40,201 nucleotides of DNA from Clostridia bacterium (GTDB lineage: Bacteria; Bacillota; Clostridia; Christensenellales; Borkfalkiaceae). Positions 1,051-25,183 of the stretch are shown here, in pieces. The first letter of the stretch is position 1. Every line of letters begins with the position of its first letter. The DNA is taken from contig JAFURP010000006.1 of the NCBI GenBank assembly GCA_017471785.1, positions 1 through 40,201 of the forward strand, written 5' to 3'. The notes under the pieces were generated by a model. That model searched no databases, had not been told where the DNA came from, and saw only the letters and a list, made by a program, of their open reading frames with translations. The translations under genes were made by a program, and so were the position numbers.

Positions 1051-2619
1051 ATGGGACAAACAAATCCGTTAAAATTATCATCAACGAATTTAATTTCAAA
1101 AATTTTGGAACACGAGGGGTTATTTTGCGAACATATTCCGTATTGTTTTTCAACAAAAATTTTCGCCGATAAATACCCTATAATAAAGGAAGATTTAAGT
1201 AAAATTACGACGGAACCGTCATTCCCTTTATCTTTTACGATGAGTAAAAATTCTTTATTAAGAAGAACTATAAGCGTACCAAATTTAGTTAGTTATATAC
1301 AATTACTATCTGTGTATGAACAGAATTGGATTGCTTTAGCGGATAAAGCTGTTTCCGACAATAGTGAATCAAAATTTAATTTAGTAGTGCCATTTTCTTA
1401 TAACACAAATTTTAAAAGCTCTATTCGAAAGCGTAATAACAAATTTGTTGGTTATAAAGTAAAATTGAATATTGATATCGCTAATTGTTTTGACTCAATA
1501 TACACACATTCAGCATCGTGGGCATTAGTCGGAAAGGAAAATGCAAAAAAGATTTTTAATAAATCTCATGATATGGATCCATCATTAATTCCGTTATACG
1601 AAATTGGTGATAAAATTGATAGGGCTACAAGGAAATTAAACGGCGATCAAACAAATGGAATCATGACTGGTCCATATAGCTCCTATTTATTTGCCGAAAT
1701 TGTTTTATCGGAGATTGATAGAAAATTAACGGAATTAGAATTTGCGTTTACTCGTTATGTTGATGATTACGGATTTTATTTTTATTCTAAAGCTGATGCC
1801 GAAGCAAAAATAGAAGTAATAGCTAGTATATTCAGAGAATATAATCTTTCTATAAATTCGAGCAAAATTAAAATTGAAACCTATCCCTATGATTTGTTGG
1901 ACGATTTTGGATCAGCTTTTGAAAATGACATAAAAAACAATAATTTATACGCAGTTTTACATAAAGCCCTTAGTTTATATAAGCAAGAGAAAAAAGGGGC
2001 AATTAAATATGCGTTTAAAATGTTATTAGCTAAAGGTGATATTGATAGTTTAGACCAAACGGTGCTTAATATGATTTTAGGTATTGTAATAAATATACCT
2101 GAAGTATCTAGTTTAGGAATACAACTTTTAGAAAAACCAACAGATAAACGTTTTTTAATTAAAAATGAAAAACGAATAAATCAATTATTAAGCCGTGAAT
2201 TACAAGAAAGGCATGACCATGAAAGTCTGTGGTTATTGTATCTTTTGACAAAAATGGGATTACCTATTGACGTGGACAATTTGAAACGTGCAATAAAAAC
2301 AGAAAATGACCTGTTGATAATTATGTGCTTGGATTCAATTCAAACGAATCCATATAATATTTACCAATATACAGGCAAAAGCAAAAATTATTTTAAAAAA
2401 ATTAAAGATCTTATTTCCTGTTTTACTGAAGAAATTGCAATAATATCAAATTTAATAAAAAATGAGGATTATACAGGGACACATTGGCTACTAGCATACG
2501 AAGTTGCGTTTAATGATTTAAGGCTTGGGAAGAAGGTAAAAATTTACGAATCCAAAAAGCGTAATTTTTATAAAATTTTATCGGAAAATGACGTGTCATT
2601 TTACAATAAAATCAAGTAA
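1051..2619 (+). CDS. Defense-type reverse transcriptase (UG/Abi/DRT-like)
   Basis: A 522-residue RNA-directed DNA polymerase. The finger/palm motifs are visible: motif A with D142 in LNIDIANCFDSIYTHS, motif B around TGPYSSYLFAE, and motif C with Y236-V237-D238-D239. The CFDSIYTHS and GPYSSxLxAE versions of motifs A and B are typical of the UG/Abi group of phage-defense reverse transcriptases, not of group II intron or retron enzymes. There is no maturase (X), En or HNH domain. The C-terminal half (about 270-522) is helix-rich, with a WLLAYE-like stretch near the end as in DRT proteins. The start is supported by GAAGGA 7 nt upstream. The gene stands alone, is far more AT-rich than its right-hand neighbours, and sits at the end of a probable island. 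The exact DRT class, and hence the mechanism (protein-primed, template-free or RNA-templated synthesis), cannot be fixed by eye. Confidence 0.85.
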   Translation: MGQTNPLKLSSTNLISKILEHEGLFCEHIPYCFSTKIFADKYPIIKEDLSKITTEPSFPLSFTMSKNSLLRRTISVPNLVSYIQLLSVYEQNWIALADKAVSDNSESKFNLVVPFSYNTNFKSSIRKRNNKFVGYKVKLNIDIANCFDSIYTHSASWALVGKENAKKIFNKSHDMDPSLIPLYEIGDKIDRATRKLNGDQTNGIMTGPYSSYLFAEIVLSEIDRKLTELEFAFTRYVDDYGFYFYSKADAEAKIEVIASIFREYNLSINSSKIKIETYPYDLLDDFGSAFENDIKNNNLYAVLHKALSLYKQEKKGAIKYAFKMLLAKGDIDSLDQTVLNMILGIVINIPEVSSLGIQLLEKPTDKRFLIKNEKRINQLLSRELQERHDHESLWLLYLLTKMGLPIDVDNLKRAIKTENDLLIIMCLDSIQTNPYNIYQYTGKSKNYFKKIKDLISCFTEEIAIISNLIKNEDYTGTHWLLAYEVAFNDLRLGKKVKIYESKKRNFYKILSENDVSFYNKIK

Positions 2620-11216: not shown

Positions 11217-11918
11217 ATGTTTTTGGATTTTTTATGGTCGCTCATTGGACGGATCGTATTTTTCACGGGTACGATAGGCACGAAGAACTCATTTCCCAAA
11301 CCGCTTTCCAAGGAGGATGAGGAGAAGTATTTGGCGTTGGCGGCAAAGGGAGATAAGGAGGCGAAGGATATTTTGGTAAAGCACAATATGCGTTTGGTAG
11401 CGCATATCGTGAAAAAATATACGGGCGCAGCGGAAACGGACGATCTGATCTCGGTGGGGAGTATCGGGCTGATCAAGGCGATAGGGACGTATCAAGCGGG
11501 GCACGGAACGGCGCTTGCCACCTATACGGCAAGATGTATCGAAAACGAGATTTTGATGCTGATTAGATCGAATAAGAAGCACAAAAACACGCTTTCTTTG
11601 TCCGATCCCGTCGGTATCGATAAGGACGGCAACGAGCTTACTTTGATGGATCTGCTCTTTGAAAAAGAGGATTGCGTGTTCGAGGAGGTGGAACGCTCCG
11701 TTCGCAGGGAAAAGCTTTTGGAGCAAATCAAGGATATCTTGAGCGAAAGGGAGTATACCATACTTTGCCTTAGATACGCCTTGAAAGGGGGGATCCCGTT
11801 GCCGCAAAGGGAGGTTGCGAACGTTTTGAAGATATCCCGTTCGTATATTTCCCGTATCGAAAAGCACGCGGTGGAAAAATTGCGCGCAAAGCTTAAGGCG
11901 GAGGATTTCCTTGATTGA
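11217..11918 (+). CDS. sigK: Sporulation RNA polymerase sigma factor sigma-K
   Basis: This 233-residue sigma-70 family factor acts late in the mother cell during sporulation and drives coat and maturation genes. It matches Bacillus SigK along its length. There is a hydrophobic pro-sequence (residues 1-20, MFLDFLWSLIGRIVFF) and then FPKPLS. Region 2 is HNMRLVAHIVKKY with DDLISVGSIGLIKAI, followed by ATYTARCIENEI; region 4 ends with REVANVLKISRSYISRIEK. The pro-sequence suggests membrane-linked activation by proteolysis, although many clostridia lack the SpoIVFB protease. The gene is not split by a skin-type element. AAGGAGG lies 8 nt before the ATG. It shows that the organism, or its recent ancestor, can sporulate. 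Confidence 0.93.
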   Translation: MFLDFLWSLIGRIVFFTGTIGTKNSFPKPLSKEDEEKYLALAAKGDKEAKDILVKHNMRLVAHIVKKYTGAAETDDLISVGSIGLIKAIGTYQAGHGTALATYTARCIENEILMLIRSNKKHKNTLSLSDPVGIDKDGNELTLMDLLFEKEDCVFEEVERSVRREKLLEQIKDILSEREYTILCLRYALKGGIPLPQREVANVLKISRSYISRIEKHAVEKLRAKLKAEDFLD

Positions 11919-14381: not shown

Positions 14382-16925
14382 TTATTTGTCGTTTTTCGTG
14401 CGAACGGAGAAAAGATAGAAGAACGCAACGAAGAACAAAATATTCATTAAATAAACGACGGGTATAACGATAAAGCTTAAAAGCTGAGAGGGGACGGAAA
14501 GCTGCGCTTTGCAATATACCGCGATCATGGTAACGAGGATCACGGTGATCACGAATACGACCGCCGCGGTCAAAATATACGAAGCGTGCTTTTTCCGTCT
14601 CGCACGCGGACGGTAGCCCGTCGCGTACAGGATCGCGCAAACGATAAATTGAACGAACCCGACGGCAAAACCGACGGCGGGGTACGCGGCGGAAACGCCG
14701 AGGTAACCGCGCGTAAAGAACACCAACAAGCTTTCAAAGGCGACGATACAAAAGATAATGAACGCCGATTTGAAAAGGGTCAAGCCCATATTAAAGCAAC
14801 CGCTTGCGCTTGCGACTGCGGGCGCTTGGGGTTGAGCGGTCGTCGTTTTCATACCGCCTGCCGTTTGTAAACGGATACCCTCCGCTTGCGCCCGTTCGCG
14901 AAGATCGCCGTAATTAAATTCCGTCGAGGTATAAGCCGTTTGCGCGTTTGCGGTAGGGGCGTATTGCGCGCTTTGCGCTACGCCGTAAGCGAATTCGTTG
15001 TTTTGATACGCCGCGGCGTATTGACGGTTGCGGAAGCTTTGCATAGCGTTGCTCAAGGCGTTTTCACGCTCCGCCAAATTCATCTCGCGTTCCTGTAATT
15101 CCCGCGCCTGTCTTTGCAGGAACGCGGTGTCCTCGGTCGCTTTTTGTTGCGTTTCTTGGAGAACGCGTTCCGCTTCTTCCTTAGAACGGTTAAACGCCGT
15201 CTTTTCCTCCTCCAGCGCGGTTTTCAAAGCGTCCAGCTCTTTAGAGCGTTCTTCTATCTGCGCCTTTTCCGTTTGCAGGGCGGCTTGTTCCGCTTCCATC
15301 TTTTCCAAATTTTCGTTGAAAACCTTTACCTGTGCGTTATACGCGCTCAATTTATCCGCAAAATCGAACTGCTGCGCCGCAAGCGCGTTCTTGCGCGTGA
15401 TGAAATCCAATTGCTGTTGGTTATAAATGGCTTGTCTTGCGGATAATTCCTTTTGCTGTTGCTGTAGCTCGTTGAATTCCTCTTGCAGCTTGGAATTTTC
15501 ACGGGAGAGCTCCGTTTCGCGCGATTGCAGATCGTCCTTTTGTTCTTGACGGATATCCAGCGCCGCTTGTTTTTCTTCGAGCAAATATTCCCTTTGCGTG
15601 ATCTCGTAGTTTTTCTTATCGATCTCCGCGCGTTCCGCTTGCAACGACTCGCGCAACGCGTTTAATTCCTCGCGGCTCGCTTGTAATTTGGCTTTTTCTT
15701 GCTCCAAAGCGTCGTGTTCGCCGCGTAAGGTGTCGCGCTCGACCTCTAAAACGTCCCTTTTGTTTTTCAGCTCTTCGCGCTCCGCTTCCAATTGCGCGAG
15801 GGCGGTGGAGTTTGCTTCTTCCGATTGTTGAGCAAGCGCGCTTTCCCGTTCGATTAAAGCGTTTTCTCTTTCCTCTAATTGCCGTTTATCGCTTTCGATT
15901 TTATCCCTTTGCGCTTCGAGCTGCGCCTGTTGCGCGCGAAGCTCTAAACCGCGATTGTAAAATTCCGTCGATTTGCTCTCGTAATCGTTTTTCAGCACGG
16001 CGATCGTTTCTTCTTGCGTGGAAACGGCGGTGTTGAGGGTGGAGATCAGGGTCTTCTTTTCCTCCAGCTCCGATTTCAAGCCGTCGATCTCCGTCTTGGC
16101 TTGCTCCAGCTCCTCGTTATTAGCTTGCGTAGCCGCGTTTTCCAGCTGCTGCTTTTGTTCCTCCAAAAGGAGCTTTAACGCGCGGATCTCCGCGTTTTGG
16201 CTTTCGAGCTGTGCTTTGGCTTCCTCGATCTCCCGTTCCTTTTCGGCAAGCTCTAACTCTTTTGCCGCGATCACGCCTTCCTTTTCGCTCAAAGCGTTTT
16301 GCTTTTCCTCCAGCTCGCGTGTTTGCGCTTCCACCTTTTCCTTTAATTCTTTCACGTCCGTCTTTTGCTCGGCGAGAGTGGAGGTTTGCGTGGAAAGGAG
16401 CGCGCGTTCGCGTTGCAGCTCGTTTTTCAAAGCGCCGAGCGCCGCTTTTTCTTCCTCCAACGCCTCCTCACGCGCGGTAAGCGCACGCTTCAGTTCGGTC
16501 AATTCCTTTTGCTTTTCGGTGATAAAGGAGAAATCGTAGTGAGCGTTTCCGTCCGAGATCAAGCTGTCGATGATCGTGCGGGAATATTCCCATTCGGACA
16601 GGTTCTTTTCCGTGATCGATTTACCCTCGTCCGTCAAGGAGAAATATTTTCTCCTGCCGCCGTTGGAAAATTCACCGTAATACGATTGTACGTATTTGAG
16701 GGATTCCAAACGCTTCAACGCGCTGTAAAGGGTGGGCTGTTTTAAGGTATACAGCCCGCCGCTTTTCTTTTCGATCTCGTTGATGATGTCGTAACCGTAT
16801 TTATCGCCGTCGTATAAACTGCGTAAAATAATGGTGTTGATGTGCCCGCGGATAAGGTCGGAGCTGATGCCGAAATTTTGTTCCTCGCCGCCCGTTATTG
16901 CGTTGTCGACTTCTATCATATCCAT
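14382..16925 (-). CDS. PadR-type DNA-binding protein with long coiled coil and C-terminal membrane anchor
   Basis: An 847-residue protein in three parts. Residues about 20-120 are a PadR winged helix: LIRGHINTIILRSLYDGDKYGYDI, then GGLYTLKQPTLYSALKRLES and the wing NGGRRKYFSLTDEG. Residues about 135-655 form an unbroken Glu/Gln/Ala/Leu-rich coiled coil. After a Tyr/Ala/Gln-rich linker, the last 140 residues hold four hydrophobic segments with a basic stretch (RPRARRKKH) between the second and third. I start at ATG 16925, 7 nt after GGAG; the upstream extension of 38 residues overlaps the promoter. A consensus promoter and a palindrome lie just upstream, suggesting autoregulation. The architecture implies DNA tethered to the membrane at a distance. 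The function is unknown; the separate parts are well supported. Confidence 0.78.
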   Translation of the reverse strand: MDMIEVDNAITGGEEQNFGISSDLIRGHINTIILRSLYDGDKYGYDIINEIEKKSGGLYTLKQPTLYSALKRLESLKYVQSYYGEFSNGGRRKYFSLTDEGKSITEKNLSEWEYSRTIIDSLISDGNAHYDFSFITEKQKELTELKRALTAREEALEEEKAALGALKNELQRERALLSTQTSTLAEQKTDVKELKEKVEAQTRELEEKQNALSEKEGVIAAKELELAEKEREIEEAKAQLESQNAEIRALKLLLEEQKQQLENAATQANNEELEQAKTEIDGLKSELEEKKTLISTLNTAVSTQEETIAVLKNDYESKSTEFYNRGLELRAQQAQLEAQRDKIESDKRQLEERENALIERESALAQQSEEANSTALAQLEAEREELKNKRDVLEVERDTLRGEHDALEQEKAKLQASREELNALRESLQAERAEIDKKNYEITQREYLLEEKQAALDIRQEQKDDLQSRETELSRENSKLQEEFNELQQQQKELSARQAIYNQQQLDFITRKNALAAQQFDFADKLSAYNAQVKVFNENLEKMEAEQAALQTEKAQIEERSKELDALKTALEEEKTAFNRSKEEAERVLQETQQKATEDTAFLQRQARELQEREMNLAERENALSNAMQSFRNRQYAAAYQNNEFAYGVAQSAQYAPTANAQTAYTSTEFNYGDLRERAQAEGIRLQTAGGMKTTTAQPQAPAVASASGCFNMGLTLFKSAFIIFCIVAFESLLVFFTRGYLGVSAAYPAVGFAVGFVQFIVCAILYATGYRPRARRKKHASYILTAAVVFVITVILVTMIAVYCKAQLSVPSQLLSFIVIPVVYLMNILFFVAFFYLFSVRTKNDK

Positions 16926-16960
16926 AAAACTACTCCGTAACGTTTTATTTTGTCTAATAA

Positions 16961-16980
16961 AATACTCTACGTAAAGTATT
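16961..16980. promoter_or_regulatory. Candidate PadR operator (palindrome)
   Basis: AATACT-CTACGTAA-AGTATT is a 20-bp palindrome with one imperfect pair. It overlaps the -10 box and the start point of the minus-strand promoter. Dyads with an AGTA/TACT core are typical of PadR sites, so it is a likely autoregulatory operator. Confidence 0.5.
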
Positions 16981-17006
16981 ATATCACAAATAGAAATAAA
17001 TGTCAA
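16978..17006 (-). promoter_or_regulatory. Consensus sigma-A promoter of the PadR/coiled-coil gene
   Basis: On the minus strand TTGACA (17006-17001), a 17-bp spacer and TATAAT (16983-16978): a perfect consensus in both boxes. Strong promoters of this kind are often held down by a repressor. Confidence 0.85.
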
Positions 17007-17078
17007 TATTATGACTGACAAAAAACCGAAAAAGGACAAATTTCACGCGATTTTTTCTGAAAATTCCAACTTTCGTCA

Positions 17079-17880: not shown

Positions 17881-19113
17881 GTGAGAAAGAACGGCGTAAA
17901 CAGGACGCTTACGGCTATCGAGGGCGGCGTTTGTGCCCCGAGCGGCTTTCGGGCGAACGGCGTGCATTGCGGTATCGCGCAAAACGTGAAATTTGTTTCA
18001 CGTGAAACGAAAGCTTCTTCGCGCGAGGATTTATCGTTGATCTTAGCCGACGGGCGGTATCCGACGACTTGCGTTTTTGCGAGCGAGCGTTGCGGTGCGT
18101 CTGCTCGAATTTCCAAGAAGCATATACAAACGGGATACGCGAGGGCGGTGATCGCAAACAGCGGGATCGCCAACGCGTTCGGCGAGGGGGCGGAGGGCGC
18201 GGCGCGCGCGATTTGTCGTGCGCTGGCAAAATCAGCGAAAATATCCGAGGACGAGATCGTGATCGCTTCGACGGGGAGGCTCGGCGTGCCCTTTTGCGAA
18301 GCGCCGATTTTGGAAAAGACGGACGAGCTGGTGAACGGCGCGGCTTCCGCGCATAATAACAGTCTTGCCGCGGCGCGCGCGCTTATGACGACGGATATGA
18401 TCGTAAAACAGCTTGCGTTTTCCTTTGAGATCGGAGATATAACCTGTAAGATAGGTGCGATTTGCAAAGGGAACGCGCGCGTAAGCCCGAATATGGCAAC
18501 CACTCTTTGTTTTGTAACGACGGACGTCAATATTTCCCCCAAAGCGCTCTCCAAGGCGTTTTCGTCGGCGGTAAACGATACGTTGAATATGCTTACCGTA
18601 GACGGTATCTTTTCGCCCAACGATTGCGCTTGCATTATGGCGAGCGGTCGGGCGGGCAATTATATCATAGACCGCGCCGACAGCGAATACGAGAAATTTA
18701 CGTATGCCTTGAAGGAAACGCTGTTTTCCGTTTGCCGTATGATCGTAACGGATAATCCCGAGCGGAAATCGCTCGTTTGTAAGGCGTCGGGCGCAAGGTC
18801 CGTTCGCGCGGCGCGAACGATGGCTAAGGCGGTCGTAAGTGCAAACGGGGTCAAGCATAAGCTTTCCAAGGGGGTAATGGAGGTAGACGACCTGCTTTGC
18901 GCCTTGTGCGGTACGGGGGAGGCGTTCGATTTATCCAAAACGGAAATTGCGGTCGGCTCGAGAAGGGGCGCGCTCGTGCTGTTCGAGGAGGGAAAGCGCT
19001 TGCCTACGTCGCTTGCGGAGCTGGAAAATATTCTCGGGGATAGAGAGATAGAGGTGGATATCCGCTTGAACGAGGGAAATTACCAAGCGAAGGCGATCGG
19101 CAACGACGGGTAA
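17881..19113 (+). CDS. argJ: Glutamate N-acetyltransferase / ornithine acetyltransferase (ArgJ)
   Basis: This 410-residue enzyme transfers the acetyl group from N-acetylornithine to glutamate, recycling acetyl in arginine synthesis; many members also use acetyl-CoA. The protein self-cleaves before a Thr, here T207 in SPNMATTL, whose amino group then acts as nucleophile. Supporting motifs are GGVCAPSGFRANGVHCGI, ANSGIANAF, the ASTG oxyanion motif, MTTD, and TVDGIFSPND (usually TVDGDTSTND). The start is GTG with GGAG upstream. No other acetyl-cycle gene (argC, argB, argD) is nearby. The next transcription unit makes carbamoyl phosphate, the other precursor of citrulline. Confidence 0.9.
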   Translation: MRKNGVNRTLTAIEGGVCAPSGFRANGVHCGIAQNVKFVSRETKASSREDLSLILADGRYPTTCVFASERCGASARISKKHIQTGYARAVIANSGIANAFGEGAEGAARAICRALAKSAKISEDEIVIASTGRLGVPFCEAPILEKTDELVNGAASAHNNSLAAARALMTTDMIVKQLAFSFEIGDITCKIGAICKGNARVSPNMATTLCFVTTDVNISPKALSKAFSSAVNDTLNMLTVDGIFSPNDCACIMASGRAGNYIIDRADSEYEKFTYALKETLFSVCRMIVTDNPERKSLVCKASGARSVRAARTMAKAVVSANGVKHKLSKGVMEVDDLLCALCGTGEAFDLSKTEIAVGSRRGALVLFEEGKRLPTSLAELENILGDREIEVDIRLNEGNYQAKAIGNDG

Positions 19114-19425: not shown

Positions 19426-20505
19426 ATGAAGAAGAAAGTGTATTTAACGTTACAAAACGGCGATTCGTTCCAAGGCTACCGCTTTGGCGCAGAGGGCGAA
19501 ATTACGGGCGAACTCGTCTTTTCGACGGGTATGGTCGGTTATATGGAAACGCTGACCGATCCTGCTAATTACGGACAGATCGTCGTACAAACGTTTCCCC
19601 TGATCGGTAATTACGGCGCGATCCGCAAGGACGCGGAAAGCGAAAGGGCTTGGGCTTCGGCGTATGTCGTTCGCGAAATTTGCGAGGAGCCCTCCAATTT
19701 CCGTAGCGAGGGCAAGCTGGAGGATTATCTTAAAGAACAAGGCGTGATCGGCGTATACGGCGTGGATACGCGCGAGTTGACCAAGATACTCCGCGAAAAG
19801 GGCGCTATGAACGCGCGCGTCAGCAGCAAACCCTTAACGGAGGAAGAGATCGAAAAATTGTCCGCTTGCTCCACCGAGCACGCCGTTCAAACGGTCGCGC
19901 CCAAAGCGCAAAAAACGCACGGCGAGCGATCGGCGGCGTATACGGTAGCGCTTTGGAATTTCGGCGTTAAGAACAGTACGGTAAACAACTTGGTCGCGCA
20001 AGGCTTGTACGTGATCGATATGCCGGCAAGCTCGACGGCGGAGGATATCCTTGCCACGGGCGCGGACGGCGTCGTGCTGGCGGGCGGCGCAGGCGATCCC
20101 GCGGAAAACGGCGCGATCGTTGCGGAAGTGAAAAAGCTGCTCGGTAAAAAACCGGTGTTCGGTATGGAATACGGGCACGCGTTCGTCGCGCTTGCGCTCG
20201 GCGCAAAGACGGCGAAGCAAAAATACGGACACCGCGGCGGCAACCAGCCCGTCAAATGCTTGGATTGCGGTAGGGTGTATATCACCTCGCAAAACCACGG
20301 CTACGAGGTAGTGAAAGAAACGGTAAAAGAGGGCACGGTCAACTTCGTCAACGTGAACGACGGCTCGTGCGAGGGGATCGATTATCCCGAACGGAACGCG
20401 TTTACGGTGCAGTTCGCGCCCGAAGCGTGCGATTTGGGCAACGTGGAAAATCCCCTGTATAAAAAATTCTTTGCGCTGATGAAAAAGGAGAAAGAAAATG
20501 CCTAA
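19426..20505 (+). CDS. carA: Carbamoyl-phosphate synthase small subunit (CarA) with a degenerate glutaminase site
   Basis: This 359-residue subunit matches CarA along its length. The N-terminal domain has FSTGMVGYMETLTDP and GVDTRELT, and the C-terminal class I glutamine amidotransferase fold keeps KYGHRGGNQPV and SQNHGYEV. The catalytic residues are gone. The nucleophile elbow GICLGHQ reads GMEYGHA (Cys to E248, Gln to A252), and the catalytic His of QFHPEA reads QFAPEA (A331). The protein therefore should not hydrolyse glutamine. It may be structural, leaving CarB to use free ammonia, as in vertebrate CPS1 where the Cys is also lost. The ORF is intact and overlaps carB by 8 nt, so it is under selection and not decayed. 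The ATG at 19426 is preferred to a TTG two codons upstream. Confidence 0.9.
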   Translation: MKKKVYLTLQNGDSFQGYRFGAEGEITGELVFSTGMVGYMETLTDPANYGQIVVQTFPLIGNYGAIRKDAESERAWASAYVVREICEEPSNFRSEGKLEDYLKEQGVIGVYGVDTRELTKILREKGAMNARVSSKPLTEEEIEKLSACSTEHAVQTVAPKAQKTHGERSAAYTVALWNFGVKNSTVNNLVAQGLYVIDMPASSTAEDILATGADGVVLAGGAGDPAENGAIVAEVKKLLGKKPVFGMEYGHAFVALALGAKTAKQKYGHRGGNQPVKCLDCGRVYITSQNHGYEVVKETVKEGTVNFVNVNDGSCEGIDYPERNAFTVQFAPEACDLGNVENPLYKKFFALMKKEKENA

Positions 20506-23500
20506 GAGAAGTGATATTAAAAAAGTTTTGGTGATCGGCTCCGGTCCTATCGTGATCGGACAAGCCGCCGAATTCGACTATGCCGGCGCGCAAGCCTGCC
20601 GTGTGATGAAAAGCGAGGGGATCAACGTCGTACTTTGCAACTCCAACCCCGCAACGATTATGACGGACAAGGCGCTTGCCGACGAGATCTATCTCGAACC
20701 GCTTACGGAAGAAACCTTAAAGCGTATCATTATTAAAGAAAAACCGGACAGCTTACTTGCCTCCCTCGGCGGACAAACGGGTCTTACGATGGGCTGTAAG
20801 CTTGCAAAATCGGGCTTTTTGGAAAAACACGGCGTAAAGCTTATCGGCACCAAGCTGGACGCGATCGACCGTTCGGAGGATAGAGAGCTTTTCAAAGAAA
20901 CGATGGAAAAGATCCATCAGCCCTGCGTTCCCTCCGATATCGCTTATACGGTGGAGGAATGTGTGGAGATCGCCGATAGATTAGGCTATCCCGTCATTAT
21001 CCGTCCTGCGTACACGCTCGGCGGCGCAGGCGGCGGCGTGGCGTACACGGAGGAAGAGCTTCGCCTTATTTCGCATAACGGCTTGATGCTTTCCCCGATC
21101 ACGCAGGTACTCATTGAAAAATACGTCGCTGGCTGGAAAGAGATCGAATTCGAGGTGCTTCGCGACAGCAAGGGCAACGTACTCACCGTTTGCTCGATGG
21201 AAAACGTCGATCCCGTCGGTATCCATACGGGCGACTCCATCGTCGTTGCGCCTGCCGTGACCCTTTCGACGAAGGAATACAATATGCTCCGCACGGCGGC
21301 ACTTTCGATCATCACCGAGCTTGGTATCGAGGGCGGTTGTAACGTACAATTCGCGCTCAACCCCGATTCCTACGAATATTCGGTGATCGAGGTAAATCCC
21401 CGCGTCAGCCGTTCTTCGGCGCTTGCTTCCAAAGCGACGGGCTTCCCGATCGCCAAGGTCACCTCCAAGATCGCGCTCGGCTATACGCTCGACGAGATCG
21501 TCAACGACGTTACGGGCAATACCTACGCTTGCTTTGAGCCGACGATCGATTACCTCGTCGTAAAAATGCCCAAGTGGCCGTTCGATAAATTCCTGTACGC
21601 AAAGCGCGAGCTCGGTACGAGAATGAAAGCGACGGGCGAGGTCATGTCGATCGGTACCTCCTTTGAAATGGCGATCATGAAAGCCGTTCGCGGTGCGGAG
21701 ATCTCCACGAGCACGATGAACTATAAAAAGTTCGTGAACAGTACGAAAGAGGAGCTGCAAGCAAAATTGTCCGAACAAACGGACGAGCGCATCTTCGTCG
21801 TATACGCCGCGCTCAAAAAGGGCGTTTCGGTGGACGAAGTGTTTAACATCACCAAGATCGACCGTTGGTTCTTGAATAAATTCAAAAACCTGATCGCGTA
21901 CGAGGAAACGATCGCAAACGAAAAGCTTACTCGTGCGCTATACGAAGAGGGCAAACGCCTCGGCTATCTCGATAAGGATATCGCGGCGATCAGCGGTCAA
22001 AAGATCCCGTATCGCAAGAAGGTCGCCTATAAAATGGTAGATACCTGCGCGGCGGAATTCCCTGCGAAAACGCCGTACTTCTATTCGACCTTCGACGACA
22101 ACGCGCACGACGAAGCGAAGCCGTTTATTGCCAAGAGTAATAAGAAACGCATCGTCGTAATCGGCTCGGGTCCTATCCGTATCGGTCAGGGGATCGAATT
22201 CGACTATTCGTCCGTGCATTGCGTATGGACGCTCAAAGAGCTTGGCTACGAAGTGGCGATCATCAACAATAATCCCGAAACCGTTTCCACCGACTTCGAT
22301 ACGGCGGACAGGCTGTATTTCGAGCCGCTCACGCCCGAGGACGTGCAACACGTGCTCGATATCGAAAAGCCTTACGGCGTCATCATCACCTTCGGCGGAC
22401 AAACGGCGATCAATCTTTGCGCGTATTTCGATACGCACGGAATCCGTATCCTCGGTACCTCCGCGGACAGCGTGGACAGGGCGGAGGATAGAGAGCGTTT
22501 CGAAGCGCTTCTCGACAAGTATTCCATTCCCCGTCCGAAAGCGTTGACGGTCATGACCAAGGAAGAGGCGTTGCAGGCGGCGGAAAAACTCGAATATCCC
22601 GTACTGCTCCGTCCCTCGTACGTTATCGGCGGTCAAAATATGACGATCGCGTTTACGCAAGAGGACGTGTGCCGTTATATGGACGTTATCTTGGCGCAGG
22701 GCATTGAAAACCCCGTGCTTTGCGATAAATATTTGATGGGTACGGAGTTGGAGGTAGACGCCATTTCCGACGGTAAAGACGTGCTGATCCCCGGTATTAT
22801 GCAACATATCGAACGCACGGGTATCCACTCGGGCGACTCTATCGCCGTATATCCTCCGTACAACCTCGACGACACGATGCTTGAAAAGATCATCGAGGTT
22901 TCCACGCAGCTTGCGTTGGAGCTCAAGACCAAAGGTCTTATCAATATCCAATATTTGATCTATCGCGGACAGCTGTACGTGATCGAGGTAAATCCCCGTG
23001 CTTCGCGTACCGTTCCGTATATCTCCAAGGTTACGGGCGTACCGATGGTAGAGCTTGCCACGAAGATCATCGTGGGAGCGAAGCTTAAAAAACTCGGCTA
23101 CGGCACGGGCTTATACCCGTCCTCGCCGTACGTTGCGGTCAAGGTGCCCGTATTCAGCTTTGAAAAGCTCAACGACGTAAACTCGCAGCTCGGTCCGCAA
23201 ATGAAATCGACGGGTGAAGTGCTCGGTATCGGTAAGACGATAGAGGAGGCTATGTTCAAGGGGCTCGTTTCCGCCGGCTTCAAGATGTGCCATCCCTCCG
23301 ACCGCCGTCCCGTCGGCGTGTATATGACCGTCAACGACAACGATAAGCTGGATCTGCTTACGATCGCCAAGAAATTCGGGGATTTGGGCTGTACGATGTA
23401 CGCCACCAAGGGTACGGCAAAGGTCATTAACGATCTCGGTATCGATTGTAGCGTAGTGGAAAGGCTTTCCGCGACGGACACCGTCATCAAGCTTATGGAC

Positions 23501-24553
23501 GAGGGTAAGATCGATTATATCGTCTATACGGGTAAGACGGATATGGAATCCATCAACGATTTCATCAAATTGCATCACCACGCGATCCTGCTCGGCATTA
23601 CGGTATTGACCGCGCTCGATACGGCAAACGCGCTTGCGGATATTATCGCAAGTAGGTTTACCGAGGATAACACCGAGCTCGTCGATATCAACGCGCTTCG
23701 AAGCGAGAAGTTAAAGCTCGATTTTACGAAGATGCAGTCTTGCGGTAACGACTATATCGTATTCGACAACCGCGACGGCAAGATCACCTGTCCCGAATCG
23801 ATCGCGGTAAACTACGTGCTTCCGCACTACGGTATCGGCGGCGACGGTATTGCGCTCATTGAAAACTCGGATATCGCGGACGCGAAAATGCGCGTCTTTA
23901 ATAAGGACGGCTCGGAAGCGCCGCAGGGCGGTAACGCGATCCGTTGTATCGGTAAATACCTCTATGAAAAGGGTATCGTTCGCAAAAACGATATGAAGAT
24001 CGAAACGGCGAAGGGCGTTTGCGACGTCAAGGTGTATTCGTTCGGCGGCGCGGTAAATTCCGCGAGCGTAAACCTCGGCAAGGTCGAGCTTGCCGGCGAA
24101 AATATCCCCTGCGTATTCAAAGAGGATAAGATCGTAAACAAGACGATCAAGGTAGGCGGTAACGATTACGCGGTTACGCTCGTCAACGTCGGTAATCCCC
24201 ATTGCGTTATTTACAGCGACAAGGTAGACGCGGTAAACGTGGAGGCGATCGGCGCGGAATTCGAAAGCTGCGAATATTTCCCCGAAGGGATCAATACGGA
24301 ATTTATCCGTATCGTGAACAGGGTAACGATAAAAATGCGCGTTTGGGAACGCGGTAGCGGTGAAACCTGGGCGTGCGGCACGGGCGCTTGCGCGGCGGTC
24401 GTTGCGGCGGTGCTCGGCGGTCATTGCGAAAAGGAAACGAATATCACCGTAAAGCTTCGCGGCGGCGATCTGACGGTAAACTACCACGAAAACGGCGAGG
24501 TCGAGCTGTTGGGTAGCGTAAAGACGGTGTACGAGGGCACGTTGGAGATCTAA
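20498..24553 (+). CDS. carB: Carbamoyl-phosphate synthase large subunit fused to a diaminopimelate epimerase domain (CarB-DapF)
   Basis: A 1351-residue fusion. Residues 1-1068 are CarB: two homologous ATP-grasp synthase halves (each starting with VLVIGSGPIxIGQ-type sequence) that make carboxyphosphate and phosphorylate carbamate, an oligomerisation domain between them, and an MGS-like regulatory domain from about residue 935. Residues from about 1072 to the end are DapF-like: LDFTKMQSCGNDYIVFD, GGDGIALI, GNPHCVIY and ERGSGETWACGTGACA. DapF converts LL- to meso-diaminopimelate with two Cys. The second is present (C1293), but the first, in the usual MCGNG, is replaced (G1144 in QGGNAIRC), so epimerase activity is doubtful. 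There is no stop or frameshift at the junction. The carB start lies inside the carA end with AAGGAG upstream. A regulatory role for the DapF domain is possible. Confidence 0.92.
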   Translation: MPKRSDIKKVLVIGSGPIVIGQAAEFDYAGAQACRVMKSEGINVVLCNSNPATIMTDKALADEIYLEPLTEETLKRIIIKEKPDSLLASLGGQTGLTMGCKLAKSGFLEKHGVKLIGTKLDAIDRSEDRELFKETMEKIHQPCVPSDIAYTVEECVEIADRLGYPVIIRPAYTLGGAGGGVAYTEEELRLISHNGLMLSPITQVLIEKYVAGWKEIEFEVLRDSKGNVLTVCSMENVDPVGIHTGDSIVVAPAVTLSTKEYNMLRTAALSIITELGIEGGCNVQFALNPDSYEYSVIEVNPRVSRSSALASKATGFPIAKVTSKIALGYTLDEIVNDVTGNTYACFEPTIDYLVVKMPKWPFDKFLYAKRELGTRMKATGEVMSIGTSFEMAIMKAVRGAEISTSTMNYKKFVNSTKEELQAKLSEQTDERIFVVYAALKKGVSVDEVFNITKIDRWFLNKFKNLIAYEETIANEKLTRALYEEGKRLGYLDKDIAAISGQKIPYRKKVAYKMVDTCAAEFPAKTPYFYSTFDDNAHDEAKPFIAKSNKKRIVVIGSGPIRIGQGIEFDYSSVHCVWTLKELGYEVAIINNNPETVSTDFDTADRLYFEPLTPEDVQHVLDIEKPYGVIITFGGQTAINLCAYFDTHGIRILGTSADSVDRAEDRERFEALLDKYSIPRPKALTVMTKEEALQAAEKLEYPVLLRPSYVIGGQNMTIAFTQEDVCRYMDVILAQGIENPVLCDKYLMGTELEVDAISDGKDVLIPGIMQHIERTGIHSGDSIAVYPPYNLDDTMLEKIIEVSTQLALELKTKGLINIQYLIYRGQLYVIEVNPRASRTVPYISKVTGVPMVELATKIIVGAKLKKLGYGTGLYPSSPYVAVKVPVFSFEKLNDVNSQLGPQMKSTGEVLGIGKTIEEAMFKGLVSAGFKMCHPSDRRPVGVYMTVNDNDKLDLLTIAKKFGDLGCTMYATKGTAKVINDLGIDCSVVERLSATDTVIKLMDEGKIDYIVYTGKTDMESINDFIKLHHHAILLGITVLTALDTANALADIIASRFTEDNTELVDINALRSEKLKLDFTKMQSCGNDYIVFDNRDGKITCPESIAVNYVLPHYGIGGDGIALIENSDIADAKMRVFNKDGSEAPQGGNAIRCIGKYLYEKGIVRKNDMKIETAKGVCDVKVYSFGGAVNSASVNLGKVELAGENIPCVFKEDKIVNKTIKVGGNDYAVTLVNVGNPHCVIYSDKVDAVNVEAIGAEFESCEYFPEGINTEFIRIVNRVTIKMRVWERGSGETWACGTGACAAVVAAVLGGHCEKETNITVKLRGGDLTVNYHENGEVELLGSVKTVYEGTLEI

Positions 24554-24574: not shown

Positions 24575-25183
24575 ATGGATGCTTTTTACGAAGAAAGCGC
24601 GGTAAACGGCAACGCGAAGAAAGAGAGCAAGCGTTATAGGTTATTTCATATCGTTTCGTATATTTTTATGATCATTGCGGTCATTTTGCTCGTTTCGTGC
24701 GTGATGTATATTCCCGTTGGCGGCGATAACGGAAGCGGGTATGGCTCGATCAGTATCTTTTTGGGTATGCAGGGCGCGTTTTTTCTCGCTTTTTGGTTCC
24801 TATTCTACAAGCTGAAAAGACGTTATAACGTCAGCTACGACTATTGCTTCGTGTCGGGCGAATTGCGTATTTCCAAGGTTTTCAATATTAATAAAAGAAA
24901 GCTGGTCGCGCGGATCGAGTGCGAGGATATGATACAGATCGGCGATATTGACAACGGTTCGTACGACCGTTTCAAAGCCGACCCTATGACCAAAGAGGTG
25001 ATCTGTACGCCTAACGTCGAGCCGGCGGAGGGTAAATTCTTTATGTACGTCCTTGCAAACTACAACGGTAAAAAGCTGTACGTGTTGGAGTGTCGTGAAT
25101 TATTGCTCATGAATATTATGAAGTTTGCCAAGCGCGGCGTTTTGGAAAGCGATTACGTTATGCAGGAGAGAAAGCAAAAATAA
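24575..25183 (+). CDS. Small membrane protein (DUF6106-like)
   Basis: A 202-residue protein with two hydrophobic segments near the N-terminus (about residues 25-50 and 66-86). A soluble, beta-rich C-terminal domain follows, containing YDYCFVSGELRISKVFN and KKLYVLEC. The MDAFYEE start and the layout resemble a clostridial family of unknown function (DUF6106), which I recall as a companion of other conserved genes; that assignment is tentative. AAAGGAGAGG precedes the ATG. It lies 21 nt after carB-dapF and 2 nt before the desulfurase gene, firmly within the operon. Confidence 0.6.
   Translation: MDAFYEESAVNGNAKKESKRYRLFHIVSYIFMIIAVILLVSCVMYIPVGGDNGSGYGSISIFLGMQGAFFLAFWFLFYKLKRRYNVSYDYCFVSGELRISKVFNINKRKLVARIECEDMIQIGDIDNGSYDRFKADPMTKEVICTPNVEPAEGKFFMYVLANYNGKKLYVLECRELLLMNIMKFAKRGVLESDYVMQERKQK

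Follow-up and report, generated by a model that had tools for sequence, protein, structure and literature searches.

DapL forms LL-DAP, the compound on which the epimerase DapF acts. The DapL-DapF and Ddh routes are pathway variants, and a PLP-type enzyme, DapF2, is an alternative epimerase, as described in the available part of the source (PMC9026213). The signature of DapF that holds the first catalytic cysteine has the form C-G-N-[GA]-x-R, and replacing either cysteine in a DapF-type racemase leaves less than 0.1% of the activity, according to the accessible text of PMC8225329. For carbamoyl-phosphate synthase (CPS), a precedent is human CPS1, in which the glutaminase domain is kept although inactive (available portion of PMC4655335). 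A fusion of CarB with DapF is described in no title or abstract of the literature found on the topic.

Such a fusion is encoded in the stretch of DNA analysed here (40,201 nucleotides of contig JAFURP010000006.1 from a gut bacterium of the Clostridia), which is called the window throughout. The first catalytic cysteine of its DapF domain is replaced by glycine, so the domain has likely lost the ability to epimerise diaminopimelate (DAP).

The fusion gene and its surroundings

The features of the locus are as follows.

17881..19113, + strand: argJ-like gene upstream of carA, arginine context (NF003802, 230 bits; cut-off 351)
19426..20505, + strand: carA with a broken glutaminase triad (TIGR01368, 353.8 bits, above the cut-off of 307.35)
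20498..24553, + strand: carB-dapF fusion gene, a single open frame of 1351 aa (TIGR01369 and TIGR00652, both above cut-off)
20498..23656, + strand: CarB part, residues 1-1053, with two ATP-grasp halves, oligomerisation and MGS domains (Pfam/NCBIfam)
23354..23611, + strand: MGS-like allosteric domain of CarB, residues 953-1038 (PF02142, 41 bits)
23663..23695, + strand: predicted flexible linker between MGS and DapF, residues 1056-1066 (AlphaFold2 pLDDT below 50)
23720..24544, + strand: pseudo-epimerase (DapF) domain, residues 1075-1349 (TIGR00652)
23927..23929, + strand: Gly1144, codon GGC, at the position of the first catalytic Cys of DapF (alignment column and codon)
24374..24376, + strand: Cys1293, codon TGC, the retained second catalytic Cys, in ACGTG (alignment column and codon)

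The original prediction, made from the letters of the window, held that an uninterrupted frame joins CarB to a complete DapF domain, that one catalytic cysteine of the latter is lost and the other kept, and that the neighbouring CarA is dead. All three statements were confirmed. The profile TIGR01369 (CPSaseII_lrg) matches residues 2-1048 of the frame with 1394 bits (cut-off 1027) and TIGR00652 (DapF) residues 1075-1349 with 252.8 bits (cut-off 114.65), while Pfam detects the domains of CPS, that of MGS and DAP_epimerase in two stretches. The interval first given for the tail, 23699-24553, fits the DapF domain plus the stop codon. In CarA, Glu (20167-20169) stands in place of the Cys and Ala (20416-20418) in place of the His of the glutaminase triad.

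The window CarB has 308 of 321 columns that are near-invariant among 24 unfused or intact-fused CarBs; this part is therefore expected to be active, and the synthase looks functional. Behind it, the tail adds an extra C-terminal domain of about 280 residues with the DapF fold, which is confidently intact, and fails the DapF signature at the first cysteine. The structure model of the MGS and DapF domains has a pTM of 0.68 with a low-confidence linker, so a fixed contact between them is not predicted.

Profile scans in the window covered selected open reading frames. The ArgJ is diverged and lies beside the remodelled CPS; that of the family member L022 scores 459. Downstream of the fusion, 24575-25183 (+) encodes a 202-aa protein with no Pfam match at E 1e-5, whose tblastn matches occur at many of the fused loci where the cysteine desulfurase gene is present too. 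On the other strand, 14382-17039 (-) encodes 885 aa of unusual architecture, with a PadR-type DNA-binding domain (57 bits), an apparent very long coiled coil and hydrophobic segments near the C-terminus. A reverse-transcriptase-like gene at 1051-2619 (+) is nearest to the antiviral Drt4 (203.8 bits, below the cut-off of 450). A SigK-type sporulation sigma factor at 11217-11918 (+) scores 289.7 bits with NF004471 (cut-off 252) and 286.7 bits with TIGR02846, below its cut-off of 298.65.

Intact and dead fusions among relatives

Close relatives were compared as a family set made of the best 80 of 571 relatives, which together with the window gives an alignment of 81 rows. Their records include Candidatus Scatosoma, Coproplasma and Gallimonas, and most are metagenome-assembled genomes. 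One frame of at least 1313 aa is present at 75 of these 80 loci, by which a frameshift or assembly artefact as the source of the fusion is ruled out; at the other five, four frames run into a contig end and one (L025) has a single in-frame stop in its CarB part. The column of the first cysteine holds Ala in 53 rows, Gly in 21, Ser in five and Thr in one, and thus Cys in none of the 80 rows scored (window included, one row gapped). The second cysteine is kept in 74 of the 79 scored rows of the same set and window, with Ser in four and Gly in one. Separate DapF copies from genomes of the same family, fetched from among the matches listed, have both cysteines in 20 of 20 cases. The loss first read in the window thus extends to its close relatives.

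CarA follows another pattern. In the best 80 of 571 relatives plus the window, a carA is absent at seven loci, and among the 74 rows (window included) Cys and His of the triad are both kept in 51 and both lost in 21, the window being one of the latter; of the remaining two, L031 has Asp with the His kept and L012 a gap at the Cys column. Within the best 80 of 571 relatives the triad loss is, apart from L031, restricted to the window's subgroup; altered CarA motifs arise separately at the far loci L103 and L117. The two losses had originally been taken together as parts of one change, and this link did not hold up: epimerase loss is general in the set, whereas CarA loss is confined, and is therefore not tied to it. 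The CPS of the window's subgroup is predicted to take free ammonia instead of glutamine.

The fusion extends far beyond this set. At order level the window domain was matched in 222 of 297 genomes and at class level in 262 of 391, many of the frames being about 1350 aa long. Two protein searches with the domain only (candidates 0.55 to 1.75 times the fusion length, E at most 0.001) matched 6592 of 7993 proteins, where only the candidates with most shared words were scored, and 6515 of 7279. In the first, the entries P0001-P0121 (n = 121) have Gly at the first position in 118, Ser in one, Ala in one and an unread residue in one; in the second, 118 of the 120 matches listed have both cysteines and two have Ser first. 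The fused protein P0308, named for Ruminococcaceae bacterium YRB3002, has both cysteines.

Among the matches listed, 123 fused domains were typed (72 at order level and 51 from outside the order), and they fall under 41 family codes of the class, by which the fusion as a single-lineage oddity is ruled out. Family f1 is represented here by the window and one other row only, and L123, a 371-aa frame at a contig end, was counted as fused by position. Both cysteines are intact in 64 of the 123, in 60 of which no second DapF match was found in the genome and in four of which one was. The other 59 lack at least one cysteine, 57 of them the first and 12 the second; 43 of the 59 come from genomes with a second DapF and 16 from genomes without. 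A second DapF here means at least two matches to the window domain per genome, which a fused gene split over contigs can mimic. Fisher's exact test of cysteine state against second DapF gives p 3e-15 with ancestry ignored; on supported branches there are only five independent pairs (three on another count), too few for a sign test. Family f6 is itself mixed among the matches listed, with 11 intact domains without a second DapF, four Ser-first domains with one, and two that lost the second cysteine and are without one. Both states also occur in families f13, f37, f41 and f49.

On a tree built without the catalytic columns, the cysteine state changes at least nine times, five of them on supported branches, and we read these changes as losses. 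In a CarB tree of 48 rows, the 29 fused CarBs group in a single clade (SH-aLRT 100) with none of the 18 unfused CarBs inside it, by which secondary loss of the domain as the origin of the sampled unfused CarBs is ruled out. Fused and unfused CarB occur together in at least six order-level genomes (G260, G182, G198, G169, G201 and G280). L194, a divergent CarB of 1272 aa without a DapF match that the tree labels fused by length, stands apart. The gene (L194:3941-7756, - strand, genome G172) has about 200 extra residues ahead of its CarB part, and a DapF-like tail is ruled out, as the CarB match spans residues 204-1259 of 1272. A single bifunctional fusion that was silenced several times is the likely history. 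The dead form probably derives from the intact one, because the fusion is found in many families and exists in an intact state too, often as the sole DapF and beside dapL.

Routes to meso-DAP and gene neighbourhoods

The survey of recognised routes to meso-DAP comprised DapF, DapL and meso-DAP dehydrogenase. An absent DAP pathway is ruled out, since DapB is present in all 46 chosen genomes. The window genome also has DapB. A separate active dapF, the search for which went back to the original prediction, was rejected there: the genome (83% complete) holds no DapF match beyond the fused one and, among the matches listed, no DapL above cut-off, and has a meso-DAP dehydrogenase instead, on contig C38.

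The window's genus (57 genomes) shows the same alternation. Separate DapF is found in 15 genomes, one of which also has the dehydrogenase, and 40 of the 42 without it have the dehydrogenase (Fisher p 2e-10, ancestry ignored). Of these 42, 34 show a fused domain (33 with dehydrogenase) and eight no match (seven with dehydrogenase). Two genomes, G020 and G132, were considered as exceptions with neither dehydrogenase nor separate DapF and were rejected as such, their only match being a separate DapF. Among the matches listed, DapL above cut-off was found in nine of nine tested genus members with separate DapF and in zero of nine without. Nearly every genome of the genus therefore has one recognised route to meso-DAP, for which the fused domain is unneeded.

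Of the 16 typed dead fusions whose genomes have no second DapF, 12 are accompanied by the dehydrogenase; the dead-fusion genomes with neither are G324, G823, G558 and G588, the last two being 65% complete. Outside the genus, the dehydrogenase is not a clean switch: of the 26 genomes tested in which an intact fusion stands without a second DapF, 17 have it as well and nine lack it (G163, G211, G257, G241, G178, G210, G584, G466 and G632). Weak dehydrogenase matches were counted as present in G647, G663 and G500, none of which is among the 16 or the 26. In all nine genomes where the intact fusion is the only recognised route, DapL above cut-off is encoded on the contig of the fusion, the distance from DapL to the fused-domain match being below 150 bases in four, below 5 kb in eight and 15 kb in one. 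The intact fusion thus looks like a working epimerase. In G260, a dapL adjoins an unfused carB (L185:2711-7217, - strand), and the intact fusion lies elsewhere in the genome.

The neighbours of the dead form are of another kind. At L022, an argJ-argB-argD-argF run is followed by carA and the fusion, and the window genome has an ornithine carbamoyltransferase above cut-off and a second, weaker carbamoyltransferase match. Of 29 genomes with the ornithine carbamoyltransferase gene above cut-off, 22 have a dead and seven an intact fused domain; gene and domain are less than 6 kb apart in 10 of the former and in none of the latter, and in the window genome they are on different contigs. In G182, which has both kinds of carB, the unfused copy is near dihydroorotate dehydrogenase genes and the fused one near argF. 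Intact fusions lie near purF, glnA or pyrG in the three scanned loci that gave neighbours. Taken together, ornithine carbamoyltransferase, argJ and the purF, glnA or pyrG neighbours suggest that the dead fusion belongs more with arginine synthesis.

The retained domain and its relation to known systems

Purifying selection acts on the dead domain. Median dN/dS values in the window's group are 0.10 from 30 pairs of the domain, 0.039 from 121 pairs of CarB and 0.197 from 26 pairs of CarA, only pairs with dS of 0.1 to 1.5 being used. The domain and CarB pairs are drawn from 210 possible ones among 21 rows, of which the rest were saturated or out of range; median dS in these two sets is about 1.3, near saturation. 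The claim that CPS has been remodelled, with amidotransferase and epimerase folds as regulatory or scaffold parts, stands so far as both folds are kept without their catalytic residues, as seen in this selection, the family-wide loss of the cysteine and the loss of the CarA triad; what it did not foresee is that the fusion spans many families and also exists intact. A role of the dead domain that is related to CPS and is not epimerisation is, in our judgement, highly probable.

The residues N11, N64, N157, N190, E208 and R209 provide the side chains of the DapF pocket. All six are present in the window domain. Among the matches listed, all 64 intact domains have the six unchanged, as do 46 of the 59 dead ones. 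In 35 dead order-level rows, ten pocket sites have a mean retention of 0.94, whereas 59 other sites whose conservation in intact DapFs is comparable reach 0.845 on average (median 0.914) and the first cysteine 0.06. The margin is modest (0.94 against the median of 0.914) and speaks for retention of a binding site. In the best 80 of 571 relatives plus the window, the Asn190 equivalent is altered in 30 of 79 rows, and 21 of the 26 rows with an Ala-Ala-Asn motif have Lys or Gln at the Arg209 equivalent. Binding of a DAP-like ligand can therefore not be the general reason for which the domain is kept, and the altered Asn190 equivalents speak against a single universal DAP sensor. The window domain may nonetheless sense DAP or lysine, as first suggested.

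The reading that we prefer, and in which belief and doubt are about evenly balanced, is that the pseudo-epimerase is kept for regulation, as a tail that binds a ligand and lies next to the allosteric domain of CPS. The fusion would have arisen once, as a bifunctional CPS and DAP epimerase. Where DAP was supplied otherwise, by a separate DapF or by a meso-DAP dehydrogenase as in the window genome, catalysis may have been lost, and the domain would not have been cut off because CarB had by then come to depend on it. The putative ligand of the pocket is an alpha-amino acid from the arginine or the DAP/lysine pathway, which would tune CPS. The retention of the second cysteine in 74 of 79 rows counts against a sensor, as it exceeds what binding alone would require. 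The full scenario is held tentatively, with doubt outweighing belief: one ancient fusion in the Clostridia may have joined CPS to DAP epimerase and thereby linked the supply of arginine and pyrimidines to that of the cell wall, at least five lineages may then have inactivated the epimerase, which became an allosteric tail of CPS that senses an amino acid, and the window's group may have silenced the glutaminase too, so that its synthase would be fed by ammonia and have two pseudoenzymes as regulators. We know of no CPS with the regulatory input of an amino-acid-sensing, epimerase-like tail.

Because the Asn190 equivalent is changed in 30 of 79 rows, the main rival to the sensor is an assembly scaffold, in which the dimer interface of DapF would hold CPS units together with no ligand. 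DapF enzymes are dimers, and the aromatic residue near the C-terminus is kept as Tyr in 53 or Phe in 26 of the 79 rows scored (best 80 of 571 relatives plus the window). The tail sits at the CPS regulatory domains, on which the dimers of Escherichia coli CPS depend according to the available text of PMC6245113. A scaffold also accounts for retention of the domain in rows with altered pockets, but it leaves unexplained the somewhat better retention of pocket residues in dead copies compared with other conserved sites, and we consider it unlikely, if worth pursuing. It is improbable that the domain is a changed enzyme, whose remaining cysteine would drive a one-base reaction on an amino acid (an elimination, or an isomerisation with a different residue as partner): Ala, Gly, Ser and Thr all occur at the first position with no single conserved choice, and the second cysteine is also lost in some lineages, including the 12 of 59 dead domains counted above among the matches listed. 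A decaying relic, kept only as clean removal is rare, would agree with the pocket changes in part of the family and with a dN/dS above that of CarB, but this is the least credible reading, given a dN/dS far below 1, a confident intact fold, and at least five state changes on supported branches with none of the 18 unfused CarBs inside the fused clade.

The system offers a natural experiment in enzyme retirement, since the same fusion is intact in some lineages and repeatedly silenced in others, and most of the genomes checked show what likely replaced it. It allows a dead metabolic domain to be tested as sensor versus scaffold. Annotation is affected too. Among the matches listed, fused records with a source name shown are annotated 'carbamoyl-phosphate synthase large subunit', and cut pieces of the fusion sometimes 'diaminopimelate epimerase, partial'. 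DapF could thus be recorded as absent from genomes with an intact fusion and as present in genomes like that of the window.

Compared with described systems, the tail resembles DapF (TIGR00652, PF01678) in its whole fold, six pocket residues and second catalytic cysteine, and differs in the glycine at the first cysteine and in its place behind CarB; its genome also differs in having the meso-DAP dehydrogenase and, among the matches listed, no DapL above cut-off. The bifunctional DapF/glutamate racemase model NF038284 is a similar case of a DapF-fold protein with an altered task, but the window scores 99 bits, far under the cut-off of 350. The synthase part is like CarB (TIGR01369) in its full domain set through MGS and its near-invariant columns, and unlike it in the added DapF domain. 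Vertebrate CPS1, in the available portion of PMC4655335, likewise keeps its glutaminase domain despite a replaced catalytic Cys and takes its nitrogen from free ammonia, as is predicted for the window. Unlike CPS1, the window system is bacterial, its CarA and CarB are separate, the His of the triad is also lost, and an epimerase-like domain has been added.
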